IMG/VR virus record: IMGVR_UViG_3300046532_001584
Span: 1-50,786 of that record
Source: a virus
Direction: 5' to 3' (one strand)
Length of the DNA stretch: 50,786 nucleotides
Below are positions 2,511-7,291 of this stretch, one piece after another (the stretch's first letter is position 1; each line of letters opens with the position of its first letter). The position numbers and the translations under genes are program-made. Below the pieces are notes generated by a model, which saw nothing but the letters and a program-made list of their open reading frames with translations, did not search any database and was not told the origin of the DNA.

Positions 2511-2792
2511 ATGGAAGATTATTTAACACTGGTTGCTGACTTAGGATTCCCTATTGTTGGCGCAGGAGCGGCGGGTTACTTTGTTTATCTAACACTGAAC
2601 TTTATATTAGATGGCGTATTAGATGACATTAAACAACAAAGGATGTTTGCTCAAGCTTTAGATAATAGAGTGAAGACAATGAATAGTGAATTGATACGAA
2701 TAGATGTAAAAATGTGTCAAGCTTTTGGAATAAGACCTGATGTTGATCGGATAGCACGAGCAGATGGTAAGACTGATGCTAGGAGAGATTAA
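2511..2792 (+). CDS. Small membrane protein, UviB/holin-like, copy 1
   Basis: A 93-residue protein with an N-terminal hydrophobic segment (residues 8-35, with LGFPIVGAGAAGYFVY) followed by an amphipathic, charged tail (VKTMNSELIRIDVKM). This layout resembles the small BhlA/UviB-type holin-like proteins. The next gene has the same layout (DYGFPIIAAAAMGYFIY, then a similar tail) and looks like a tandem paralogue. Stop and next start overlap (TAATGG). It could be a holin, an antiholin or a curli accessory membrane protein; the sequence does not decide. Confidence 0.7.
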   Translation: MEDYLTLVADLGFPIVGAGAAGYFVYLTLNFILDGVLDDIKQQRMFAQALDNRVKTMNSELIRIDVKMCQAFGIRPDVDRIARADGKTDARRD

Positions 2793-3106
2793 TGGATGAT
2801 TTAACAGTAGGTAATAGTTTAAATATAGGACAAATAGTTGCTGACTATGGTTTTCCAATCATTGCCGCAGCGGCTATGGGTTATTTCATATACTTTATAT
2901 GGACATGGGTATCTACAAAAGTAGATCCAGTTATAGGGGATAGTCACATGACCCTAATCGCTTTAATTGATAGAGTGAGAATGTTAGACAATGATCTAAT
3001 TAGATTGAATGCTAAATTAGATATGATATTACAGGAGAAGGAAAGGAATGAAGCAGCTAGGGATAATATTACTGTTAATCACATCGATCCAGGCAAGCGC
3101 AAGTAG
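2792..3106 (+). CDS. Small membrane protein, UviB/holin-like, copy 2
   Basis: A 104-residue protein with one strong TM segment (about residues 18-40) then a helical charged region (IDRVRMLDNDLIRLNAKLDMIL). It shares the LI-R-x-[DN]-x-K-[LM] tail and the GFPI..A motif with the preceding protein, suggesting a gene duplication. Its last 59 bp are shared with csgF in another frame. If the pair forms hetero-oligomers in the inner membrane they might time lysis or assist secretion; this is inference. Confidence 0.68.
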   Translation: MDDLTVGNSLNIGQIVADYGFPIIAAAAMGYFIYFIWTWVSTKVDPVIGDSHMTLIALIDRVRMLDNDLIRLNAKLDMILQEKERNEAARDNITVNHIDPGKRK

Positions 3107-3527
3107 CTTAAGCTTTGGGTTTGGTAATCCTTCTTTTAGTGGGAATGGCTTCTCTACACATGCGTTATCTATAAGTCAGTTAGAATATAATCGTTCTACT
3201 GATATTGAAAAGGCAAAGAAATCTGCTGAAGCGAAAGCGATACGTGATGAAGAGAATACAATCGTAAATAAGTTTATTACGAATGTTGAGTCAAGAATTT
3301 ATGCAACACTATCTAAACAGTTAGTGGAGAACATGTTTGGTATATGTAGTGCTGAGGAAGTAGAAGCAAGTACATGTACGGTCACAACAAGTGGCACAGC
3401 AACATATATGGGAGCGACAATGGTTTGGGCAAGAGATGATACGAATAATACTATCACTCTACAAATTACGCAGCCTGATGGAACGACAACGGAAATTATT
3501 GTACCAATTAAAGGATTTGGATTTTAA
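3048..3527 (+). CDS. csgF: CsgF-like curli assembly factor
   Basis: The protein has a signal peptide (about residues 1-19, ending ASA) and a mature N-terminus LSFGFGNPSFSGNGF, which matches the CsgF pattern of F-x-F-x-NP-x-F-x-G-x-N. In E. coli the N-terminus of CsgF inserts into the CsgG pore and positions the nucleator outside the outer membrane. The C-terminal third is a beta-rich stretch (ITLQITQPDGTTTEIIV) as in the family. Length 159 versus about 138 in E. coli. The ATG is preceded by a purine-rich ribosome site (AGGAGAAGGAAAGGA). C100 and C110 form a possible disulfide absent from the E. coli protein. CsgG lies three genes downstream, which strongly supports the call. Confidence 0.88.
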   Translation: MKQLGIILLLITSIQASASSLSFGFGNPSFSGNGFSTHALSISQLEYNRSTDIEKAKKSAEAKAIRDEENTIVNKFITNVESRIYATLSKQLVENMFGICSAEEVEASTCTVTTSGTATYMGATMVWARDDTNNTITLQITQPDGTTTEIIVPIKGFGF

Positions 3528-4717: not shown

Positions 4718-5435
4718 GAAGTTCATGGGAAATTTCTCTTTATTTATGATAATGATGTCAGCGTTTGTTGGTGTATTCGCTAACGACATATATATTACAC
4801 AGTCTGGTGTGACACTAGATTTGGCTGTAACTCAAGATGGTGATAATAACGTGATGGGTACGTCTGGCGCGCGGGTAACAGTAACGGGTGCTAATGCCAC
4901 CTGGACAGTTTCACAAGTTGGTGATTCAAACATAATATCTGCCACAATATTGGGTGCCACTTATACTGGTACATGGGCAGTAACAGGTAGTGCGAATGAT
5001 ATTGCATTCCTATGTTCGTCAGGTGGTACAGGAAAGTGTGAGTCAGTAGATGTTGATATTGTTATTCAAGGTGGTAACACAGATATGGATATTACAATTG
5101 GTGCGAATGCAGTTTCAACTAATACAGATATCACAGCAACTGTTACTGGTAACCACAACACGGTGGATATCGATATGGATGGTTTACAAGGAGCTTCTAC
5201 TACTACAGTAGTTACACTTAATAACTCAGGTGCTGGTACAGCGACAGCGAGTGATAACAACATTGACTTTGATTATCTTAAGTCAGGTGCTGGTGATTCT
5301 GTTGGACATAAATTAAATTATGTGCATACAGGTTCTGGTGAAGTTGATATTATACAAACAGGAACAAATGACAATATTATTGATGCTATTATTACAAGTA
5401 CTGGTGCAGATGTGGACATTACTCAAACGGACTAG
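4710..5435 (+). CDS. Curlin-repeat protein 1 (CsgA/CsgB-like)
   Basis: After a signal peptide (about 1-24, ending FANDI) come repeated strand-turn-strand units with the curlin pattern Q-x-G-x-x-N: VTQDGDNN, VSQVGDSN, VIQGGNTD, TVTGNHNTV, IIQTGTNDN, and a terminal DITQTD. Curlins stack these units into an extracellular amyloid. 241 residues versus about 151 for E. coli CsgA. C102 and C110 (CSSGGTGKC) may form a disulfide loop, unlike E. coli CsgA. The frame follows csgG with an 8-nt overlap and shares its last 26 nt with the FecR-domain gene. Whether it is the major subunit or the nucleator cannot be told. Confidence 0.88.
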   Translation: MNKKFMGNFSLFMIMMSAFVGVFANDIYITQSGVTLDLAVTQDGDNNVMGTSGARVTVTGANATWTVSQVGDSNIISATILGATYTGTWAVTGSANDIAFLCSSGGTGKCESVDVDIVIQGGNTDMDITIGANAVSTNTDITATVTGNHNTVDIDMDGLQGASTTTVVTLNNSGAGTATASDNNIDFDYLKSGAGDSVGHKLNYVHTGSGEVDIIQTGTNDNIIDAIITSTGADVDITQTD

Positions 5436-6537
5436 CCTATTATTATTCATAGCTATACAGGCACAAGCAAATATTGGTTCGGTAACCGATTTTACCGGTT
5501 CCGCAGCTATAGAAAGAGATGAAGGCTTTGAGGTATATGATGTAGAGAAAGACCTAGGTGTAGAGATGATGGATGTTGTCGCTACAGCAATGGGTAAAGT
5601 AAGAATAGAGTTTTTAGATGAGACTCTAGTAGATGTGACTGAACATAGTCGATTGATCATAGATGATTTCGTCTATGATCCTGAGTCAGGCGAGGGAGCA
5701 TTAGGTTTAAAGGCGAGTCTTGGTACGATAAGATACGCCTCGGGTAAGATCGCTAAGAACAGCAGACAGAATGTTGTGATTACGACACCGAGTGCAGTGA
5801 TTGGTGTGAACGGTACAGATTTTGCCATGATTGTAAATGAGATTGGTGGATCCATGATTACACTGTTGCCATCATGTGACAGCAGTGGTTTATGTGTTGT
5901 AGGTGAGATATCAGTTACTACAGATATGGGTTATGTTATAATGACCCAGGCATTTGAAACAACATATGCAGATAGTGCTGGGGTAAGACCTAGTAAACCA
6001 GTTATATTAGATTTAGATGAGGAGATGATGACTAATCTCTTGATCATACGGGAAGTAGAAGAGGTAGATCCAGATGGAGCATTGGCAGATGCGGCCGCAA
6101 AGAAGAAATTAAGTGATATACTCGGTGTAGATTTCTTAAGTACAGATGCTTTATTAGCAGATGTTTTAGATGAAGATAAAGAAGAAAGATGGAGAACAGC
6201 GTTAGATGATAACAGATTCTTCTTTGGTGATTTACTTGGAGATATATTAGAACAATTAAATTTAGCTTTGGCAAAACAGTTACAAGCTGATTTTGATAAA
6301 AGCAGAAGAGCATCGCAACAGGGAGAGGGATACGATGAAATTACAGGTACACGACTTAGTATTGAAGACGGTAAGTGGACATTGTCAAGAAGAGACATGG
6401 AAACAGATCAGTACTGGAGCTTGGAGTTAGATCAGAATAATGGGTATACTATCGACTGGATACAACAGGATTTTGAATGGTATGACTATCGCCTTGGTGA
6501 TGGGGATAATATCATTCACATCCGTCAACGCAAATGA
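5410..6537 (+). CDS. Secreted FecR-domain protein
   Basis: The start at ATG 5410 gives a clean signal peptide (MWTLLKRTSLLLFIAIQAQA, then NIGS); the frame is open further upstream but that part is non-signal-like. Residues about 20-170 form a FecR domain with the hallmark GTIRYASGKIAKNS then TTPSAVIGVNGTDF. In cells FecR domains occur in periplasmic sensors and in adhesin or polysaccharide-linked proteins. C156 and C162 form a short potential disulfide loop. The C-terminal half is acidic and helical, ending in beta-like repeats (DGKWTLSRRD). It lies between two curlin genes and overlaps both, so it probably works with the fibre: anchoring, capping or sensing. No TM helix after the signal peptide was seen. 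Confidence 0.85.
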   Translation: MWTLLKRTSLLLFIAIQAQANIGSVTDFTGSAAIERDEGFEVYDVEKDLGVEMMDVVATAMGKVRIEFLDETLVDVTEHSRLIIDDFVYDPESGEGALGLKASLGTIRYASGKIAKNSRQNVVITTPSAVIGVNGTDFAMIVNEIGGSMITLLPSCDSSGLCVVGEISVTTDMGYVIMTQAFETTYADSAGVRPSKPVILDLDEEMMTNLLIIREVEEVDPDGALADAAAKKKLSDILGVDFLSTDALLADVLDEDKEERWRTALDDNRFFFGDLLGDILEQLNLALAKQLQADFDKSRRASQQGEGYDEITGTRLSIEDGKWTLSRRDMETDQYWSLELDQNNGYTIDWIQQDFEWYDYRLGDGDNIIHIRQRK

Positions 6538-7291
6538 AATATGGACACAAGTTAACGGTGCTAGTGCTACTATAAGTATAACACAAGATGGGGATAATAA
6601 TAAAGTAGGAGCTTCAGGCCAAACATTCACAGTGAATGGTACAAGTAATGTTTTAGTTATTATTCAACAAGGACAATATAATAATGTAGGATCGGTAATT
6701 AATATGGACGGTTTAAATTGGGGATCTGGCTCTACTTATGGTGGTGATATATATGGTAATAATAACAACATAAAGTTTGAACAGTATAATACCACAGGAA
6801 CAGATTGGAATAATATAGGTATACATAACTATGGTAATAGCGGTAACACGGCACATGTGTGTCAAGGTAAATCGTTTAGTGATGCAAATGATACTACATG
6901 TGAAGCATCAGCTACAGCAGAATATGGTGGACATACTGCTATTGTAGATTTCCATGGTAATAATAATGATTTAAAGGTTAGTCAAGAAACAGGTACTGGT
7001 AATGCTGATCACAGAGTAAGAGCGTTTTATTATAATGGTGATAATAACGATACATTTATTAAACAGAAAGGTAACGGAAATAAGACTGCGTATTTGACAG
7101 TCAGAACAGATGGTGGAGAACAAAGTATTATACAAAAAGATAACGGATCCCATACGGCAACAGTAGATTTAACAGGTACATATCATACTGATATAAGTGT
7201 ATTACAATATGGCAATACTACTCAGTCATATAGTGTAACAAACACTTGTCAAACATCAGGTGGTTGTACCTTAAGTGTAACGCAGAACTAA
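6440..7291 (+). CDS. Curlin-repeat protein 2 (CsgA/CsgB-like)
   Basis: A second secreted curlin-like protein. The signal peptide ends near residue 31 (SVNANEIW); ATG 6440 supplies a basic residue to the signal, and ATG 6482 is an alternative. Repeats include [67 protein letters not shown] and [10 protein letters not shown]. They are Asn- and Gln-rich with the curlin Q-x-G-x-x-N spacing. Four Cys at 141, 154, 270 and 276 could form two disulfides. It overlaps the FecR-domain gene by up to 98 bp. With protein 1 it may form a major/minor subunit pair. Confidence 0.88.

Follow-up and report, generated by a model that had tools for sequence, protein, structure and literature searches.

A marine T4-like phage contig carries an operon that its sequence supports as a phage-encoded curli (type VIII secretion) module, with the pore, CsgF and two curlin-type subunits. 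The contig is IMG/VR virus record IMGVR_UViG_3300046532_001584, positions 1-50,786; this whole record was analysed and is called the window below. The genes for CsgF, CsgG, a first curlin-type subunit (cur1), a FecR-domain protein and a second curlin-type subunit (cur2) form one operon, all in one direction and overlapping, in which the two curlin-repeat genes (4710-5435 and 6440-7291) lie on either side of the FecR gene (5410-6537; PF04773, E=4.6e-7). The original prediction, made for the interval 2511-7291 from sequence without database searches, had described a co-directional, overlapping operon of a T4-like phage with CsgG-like and CsgF-like genes and a FecR-domain protein between the curlins. 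The gene layout, the T4-like genes of the contig and a hidden Markov model check (PF03783, 4.6e-46; PF10614, 2.9e-9) all bear this out. Two small membrane-protein genes (s1 and s2, 2511-3106) are also members of the module, as is the divergent cyclase gene (622-2529, minus strand), though it lies outside that interval. Chance or artefact was rejected as an explanation of the operon. The parts of the module are the following.

622..2529, minus strand: CHASE2-domain class III adenylate cyclase (Pfam CHASE2 6.7e-33, Guanylate_cyc 2e-17, phrog_35576 8e-208).
2469..2480, unstranded: palindromic T4-type late promoter motif TATTTATAAATA between cyclase and operon, conserved in three related contigs (L002, L003, L288).
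2511..2792, plus strand: s1, 93 residues (phrog_18771 6e-30), one transmembrane helix predicted from hydropathy and a coiled-coil-like tail.
2792..3106, plus strand: s2, 104 residues, paralogue of s1 by alignment (phrog_18771 3.9e-28).
3048..3527, plus strand: CsgF with signal peptide (PF10614, above cut-off).
3920..4717, plus strand: CsgG outer-membrane pore lipoprotein (PF03783; PDB CsgG 3e-63; NF011731 1e-46).
4710..5435, plus strand: curlin-type subunit cur1 with signal peptide (family Curlin_rpt matches, motif statistics, AlphaFold2).
5410..6537, plus strand: secreted FecR-domain protein with a phage-specific, strand-rich C-terminal tail (PF04773, model, fold neighbours 6ovk and 5ix9).
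6440..7291, plus strand: curlin-type subunit cur2 with signal peptide (Curlin_rpt 0.0016, close relatives above cut-off, motif statistics).

The T4-like character of the contig is evident from genes encoding a tail sheath, a family B polymerase and a gp44-like clamp loader. The nearest relatives of its capsid protein (54-56%) are the unclassified Phage C48C1, Pelagibacter phage HTVC008M, Methylophilales phage Melnitz and Pelagibacter phage Mosig, and the polymerase is nearest to those of C48C1 and cyanophages.

CsgG of the window matches PDB CsgG structures (3x2r and others) by profile over its full length and has a lipobox, LAG^C, at residues 16-19. Together with the Pfam match, these features identify it as the CsgG outer-membrane lipoprotein pore, which would assemble as a nonamer. 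The match of CsgF to PDB CsgF is weak (E 0.17, profile positions 10-52); its assignment comes from PF10614 and from an N-terminal motif, FGNPSFSGNGFS, which the alignment shows to be near-invariant in the phages and in the bacterium Hyphomonas sp. TMED17. In E. coli the CsgF N-terminus enters the CsgG pore. The near-invariance of this segment argues against the suggestion that CsgG and CsgF no longer pair (PMC9004378). Nearly all phage CsgG loops inspected read GQRK and most bacterial ones GQFK or GQYK; if a nonamer forms, the GQRK loops would place nine positive charges in a ring. CsgE (PF10627) was found neither in the window nor in the complete HTVC008M and Melnitz genomes, and none was present in 22 alphaproteobacterial genomes with csg operons, with E. 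coli as the positive control. The original prediction was thus right that, of the parts needed for secretion across the outer membrane, CsgE is missing, but the lack is not a defect. Since CsgE is also missing from the bacterial relatives, it is not a defining feature of this curli branch.

The secreted curlin-type subunits were recognized through their relatives. cur2 falls just below the Pfam Curlin_rpt cut-off (18.8 vs 20.7 bits), and members of the same clade lie above it (L004, 4.1e-10; L002, 8e-6); in the cur1 family, 23 of 36 members match Curlin_rpt (best 3.6e-6). UxUxQ.G strand motifs are enriched relative to shuffled sequences in both window proteins (p about 0.0015 and 0.0005). The predicted pair of curlin-repeat proteins therefore holds at the level of relatives and strand motifs, with the window copies themselves below the cut-off. 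The AlphaFold2 model of cur1 shows regular short strands and turns throughout (predicted local distance difference test 80, predicted TM-score 0.75), that is, a predicted fold of repeated strand-turn-strand units; its PDB neighbours are insignificant and mostly beta-helix proteins. When cur1 was compared with PDB by sequence, matches to GFP arose through a GDVNGH motif and were discarded as chance.

The most likely start of the FecR gene is 5410 rather than 5320, and the gene's product begins with a signal peptide predicted from sequence and model. The FecR domain is the only domain in 39 of 39 orthologues, and the phage protein has neither a cytoplasmic anti-sigma domain nor a transmembrane segment before it. 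With the FecR domain alone behind a signal peptide, the phage protein reads as a secreted protein and not as the anti-sigma, iron-citrate regulator that gave the domain its name. The modelled domain matches the PupR signalling domain (6ovk, E 6e-5) and the surface-anchor domain of MpAFP (5IX9; E 0.015, TM-score 0.74 of target); the latter is also its best sequence-profile match, a weak one (E 0.041). The C-terminal 100 residues, modelled as six short strands and ending in conserved Q positions, have a curlin-motif count with p about 0.04. Homology of this tail to curlins was considered but not supported, with a profile-profile probability of 2-3%, no better than that of a control region, and is speculative.

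The cyclase, which likely starts at 2463, has both the CHASE2 and the cyclase domain. Its predicted catalytic residues are present (FMDIIGFT, VDKFMGDC and RFDFSVIGDAVNLAAR), including the metal-binding Asp pair and the adenine-type Lys/Asp, and it is therefore a putative CHASE2 class III adenylate cyclase. FecR and cyclase genes also stand directly side by side in 9 further same-order bacterial loci, with no curli gene within the ~3.4 kb fetched; CHASE2 was confirmed in 3 of the 3 checked. In Burkholderia, a biofilm operon has FecR together with a CHASE2 kinase (PMC5192318).

The leading proteins, s1 and s2, each have one predicted transmembrane helix and a coiled-coil-like tail. Wittmers 2022 (PMC9599517) put 'histidine kinase(s)' in the leading position of the module, and from position and size we infer that s1 and s2 are the genes meant. 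No kinase domain (HisKA/HATPase) was found among 14 members of the s1/s2 family, and by domain content these proteins are not histidine kinases. Searches against Pfam and PDB returned only weak, chance-like matches, which were set aside. In a search seeded with s1/s2, curli or FecR genes were in view in 57 of 78 viral loci, and about 12 further viral loci showed the cyclase before the contig ended; a few contigs (L297, L324) have no csg gene despite room for one. s1/s2 were not found in bacterial csg loci (TMED17 and 24 other alphaproteobacterial loci). To judge from this distribution, they are a pair of membrane proteins confined to phages and rarely seen apart from curli genes.

An exact TATAAATA lies 31 nt upstream of s1, so that the operon has the layout of a T4-type late transcription unit, with the motif shortly before the first gene. 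The palindrome holds one exact copy on each strand, and the second faces the cyclase, the chief gene read leftward in this region. The total in the window, 17 exact copies vs 11.8 expected, is not unusual; what is informative is their position, since 9 of the 15 plus-strand copies sit 6-62 nt before a gene start, many of these being structural genes. Around the operon start the motif occurs in 28 of 73 non-redundant viral loci, vs 2.4 expected when stretches are drawn at random from these loci, and in none of 21 bacterial operons. Copies with one mismatch occur at chance level, so that only exact, positioned copies are informative; sigma-70-like promoters in the region were likewise at chance level. 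The operon is probably expressed late, together with the structural genes, as far as promoter sequences can tell.

Viral curli modules are already known, and the window is one more member. CsgF/CsgG operons were described in pelagimyophages together with the 'sibling capture' idea (Zaragoza-Solas 2020, PMC7029224). A CsgF-CsgG-CsgA/B-FecR-CsgA/B-cyclase arrangement was described in podo- and myophages (Wittmers 2022), and operons of this kind were described in Melnitz with a proposed role in lysis (Buchholz 2022, PMC9004378). The original prediction was right that pelagimyophages carry such clusters. As far as the literature consulted shows, the bacterial operon with FecR and cyclase inside, the late-promoter signature and the corrected identities of two parts are new. 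A CsgG profile scan found at least 586 related IMG/VR stretches. Among complete viral loci the order s1-s2-CsgF-CsgG-cur1-FecR-cur2-cyclase dominates, and the cultured HTVC008M (NC_020484) and Melnitz show it. The window belongs to a subclade with L002-L004 (CsgG 77-78% identical), and its CsgG is at most 53% identical to those of cultured phages.

One-genome-per-species collections gave 24 CsgG matches, of which 3 are phage contigs inside metagenome-assembled genomes. These three, binned as Flavobacteriaceae (L023), Pelagibacter (L024) and Rhodobacteraceae (L025), hold the curli module of the phages, evidently as contaminating viral sequence. A distant CsgG-like protein (28% identity) is encoded by giant Brevundimonas phages, namely Kabachok (L022, ON529852) and four relatives; no CsgF or curlin is annotated beside its gene, and it is possibly a relative of HfaB-type holdfast anchors. 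A 1.5-kb record labelled Salmonella phage (OR851715.1), with a CsgG 37% identical to the query, is probably a mislabelled bacterial fragment.

The best bacterial match is the marine Hyphomonas sp. TMED17 (NHBW01000006, L026), in which CsgF, CsgG, curlin, FecR and CHASE2 cyclase genes follow each other on one strand. This operon sits on a 705-kb contig amid ordinary bacterial genes (G+C 0.505 vs 0.53 in the flanks). The gene order is that of the phage module, with identities of 43% for CsgG, 38% for the cyclase, 37% for CsgF and 35% for FecR, and the Phe48 position of its CsgG constriction loop is occupied by Arg, as in the phages. It differs from the phage module in having no s1/s2, a single long curlin and a FecR without the phage C-terminal tail (the profile match stops at 263 of 370). 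A CsgG tree built from 87 rows places all 42 from phages together in a single clade (SH-like approximate likelihood ratio test, 99), to which TMED17 is sister (93). FecR and cyclase are absent from 24 other alphaproteobacterial csg loci, which contain CsgF-CsgG and mostly curlins; TMED17 stands alone so far. The cyclase, kinase and FecR had been stated not to lie inside bacterial type VIII secretion operons (PMC9599517), which TMED17 contradicts as regards FecR and cyclase. On the simplest reading of these sequences, a FecR-CHASE2 pair that already existed became part of a bacterial csg operon, and a phage then captured the whole; transfer in the reverse direction, from phage to bacterium, is the less favoured alternative.

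The genes inserted in and following the window operon are listed below.

3527..3628, plus strand: single-transmembrane peptide open reading frame, 33 residues, TAATG-coupled to CsgF and the next gene (sequence reading).
3628..3918, plus strand: membrane protein, 96 residues, widespread in other marine phages.
7293..7577, plus strand: YfhL-type 2[4Fe-4S] ferredoxin (NF033683 2.5e-31, above NCBIfam cut-off; gene maps).
7579..7839, plus strand: holin-like small protein, 86 residues, subgroup-specific neighbour.
7955..8740, plus strand: class 3 lipase (PF01764 2.9e-17), subgroup-specific neighbour.

The 96-residue membrane protein is up to 96% identical to proteins of many unrelated marine phage contigs (L208-L287), where its gene usually lies within clusters of small membrane proteins. 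It stands between CsgF and CsgG in the window and between s1 and s2 in L210 and L247. Because copies 96% identical occur elsewhere, its presence in the window operon is probably a recent insertion. Gene maps place the ferredoxin gene beside the curli module in a subgroup only. Of the gene set first considered worth describing for its cyclase, FecR, ferredoxin and holin-like genes, cyclase and FecR recur in the published module, and ferredoxin, holin-like gene and lipase are confined to the subgroup. The lipase, beside small holin-like genes, is a possible membrane-attacking component of lysis.

We lean, with moderate confidence, towards a complete, CsgE-less curli module of alphaproteobacterial type and Hyphomonas-like origin that acts late and whose fibres hold cells and progeny together. 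Gene identity, conservation of the operon, the bacterial sister operon, the late-promoter motif and the conserved CsgF pore peptide carry this reading; from them we infer secretion, amyloid formation, the role of FecR, signalling and benefit, with the curlin fold as a model prediction. The module would have been captured from a marine Hyphomonas-like bacterium along with FecR and the CHASE2 cyclase, which would already have been an envelope-signalling pair there. Transcribed late in infection from the T4-type late promoter, it would yield cur1, cur2 and a FecR protein that pass the inner membrane via Sec. CsgG would form the outer-membrane pore, with the CsgF N-terminus plugged in, through which the curlins would be exported to fold, on the doomed host, into amyloid-type beta-solenoid fibres. 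The FecR protein may remain at the envelope and couple the state of fibre or pore to the cyclase. Late fibres could keep progeny, debris and host cells from drifting apart in dilute water, as in 'sibling capture' (PMC7029224).

Several observations weigh against this reading. Melnitz-infected cells showed no clumping by cytometry or transmission electron microscopy (Buchholz et al., PMC9004378). Phage CsgG does not keep the aromatics that line the constriction in E. coli (F48 is R, and Y51 and F56 are gone), and export through it may therefore behave differently. Curlin_rpt finds no match in window cur1 itself, nor does the cur1 model have a significant neighbour in PDB. Only some of the operons show the late-promoter motif in exact form, no cyclic AMP target is known for the cyclase, and TMED17 CsgG has a long branch, which makes its sister position uncertain.

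A tentative and less likely variant is a redesigned phage curli, in which s1/s2 would replace host envelope factors and FecR would have gained a curlin-like C-terminal tail; as a nucleator anchored in the envelope, FecR would then fasten the fibre to the cell and, late in infection, signal its state to the CHASE2 cyclase. It is unlikely that the CsgG/CsgF pore has been repurposed for lysis in a pinholin- or secretin-like way, with the curlin-like proteins as passengers or plugs. The role proposed for Melnitz (PMC9004378), the late promoter, the holin-like size and topology of the phage-only s1/s2, and the class 3 lipase and holin-like genes adjoining the window clade operon, with its inserted small membrane protein, are all in line with such a device. 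CsgG, however, keeps its lipobox and full-length similarity to an outer-membrane pore, and pinholins by contrast work at the inner membrane; conservation extends to the CsgF pore peptide and to both curlins, which would be superfluous for a bare lysis pore. The same module is moreover found in podoviruses (PMC9599517).

Fibres or an altered surface that block superinfection by other phages are a doubtful explanation, the late promoter being a poor fit for exclusion. Superinfection exclusion is an early function in T4. The idea was put forward since curli biofilms limit phage penetration (PMC9599517). Another suggestion (PMC7029224, PMC9599517) is that the pore stands open in the outer membrane and lets in large nutrients, iron complexes or cofactors, FecR being the iron sensor; the missing CsgE gate and the name FecR would suit it. 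We consider it improbable: FecR has a signal peptide and neither anti-sigma domain nor transmembrane segment, CsgE is equally absent from the bacterial relatives, and two conserved curlins and CsgF would be left unexplained. Degenerate cargo or a wrong curli assignment, to which the sub-threshold scores of window cur1 and cur2 might point, is hardly credible given the open frames, gene order and residues conserved over many contigs, a CsgG identity beyond doubt and the Curlin_rpt matches of the cur1 family.

Viral curli are widespread in ocean phages, and the known hosts of these phages have no such system. The late promoter turns attention to how infection ends (release, trapping or lysis) and away from early host takeover. 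The bacterial operon, which has these FecR and cyclase genes too, offers a second route to the signalling part, and correcting the 'histidine kinase' and 'iron regulator' labels takes away two misleading leads.

Among known systems, the RTX adhesin MpAFP has a cell-surface anchoring domain (5IX9) that the N-terminal beta domain of FecR matches by fold, with marginal sequence similarity, but it is a type I secreted adhesin and not curli. In the Burkholderia BiofilmReg system (PMC5192318), which is tied to biofilm formation, a CHASE2 membrane sensor likewise has a secreted protein with a FecR domain as its neighbour; this system differs in its histidine kinase output, a FecR fused to LysM and the lack of curli genes. 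With E. coli csgBAC/csgDEFG the window shares the CsgG pore, CsgF and curlin repeats. Unlike that system, it has FecR and cyclase inside the module, no detected CsgE, no annotated CsgC or CsgD in the operon, and replaced aromatics in the constriction loop. The closest likeness is to the type VIII secretion module of pelagiphages (HTVC008M, Zaragoza-Solas, Wittmers, Melnitz), in which two small genes, CsgF, CsgG, curlin, FecR, curlin and cyclase have the same order; the window shows this CsgF-CsgG-curlin-FecR-(curlin)-(cyclase) arrangement in a pelagiphage-like genome. Compared with the cultured pelagiphage module, the window clade differs in three respects: an upstream divergent cyclase that shares the palindromic late-promoter motif with the operon, a foreign membrane-protein gene between CsgF and CsgG, and ferredoxin, holin-like and lipase genes at the end.

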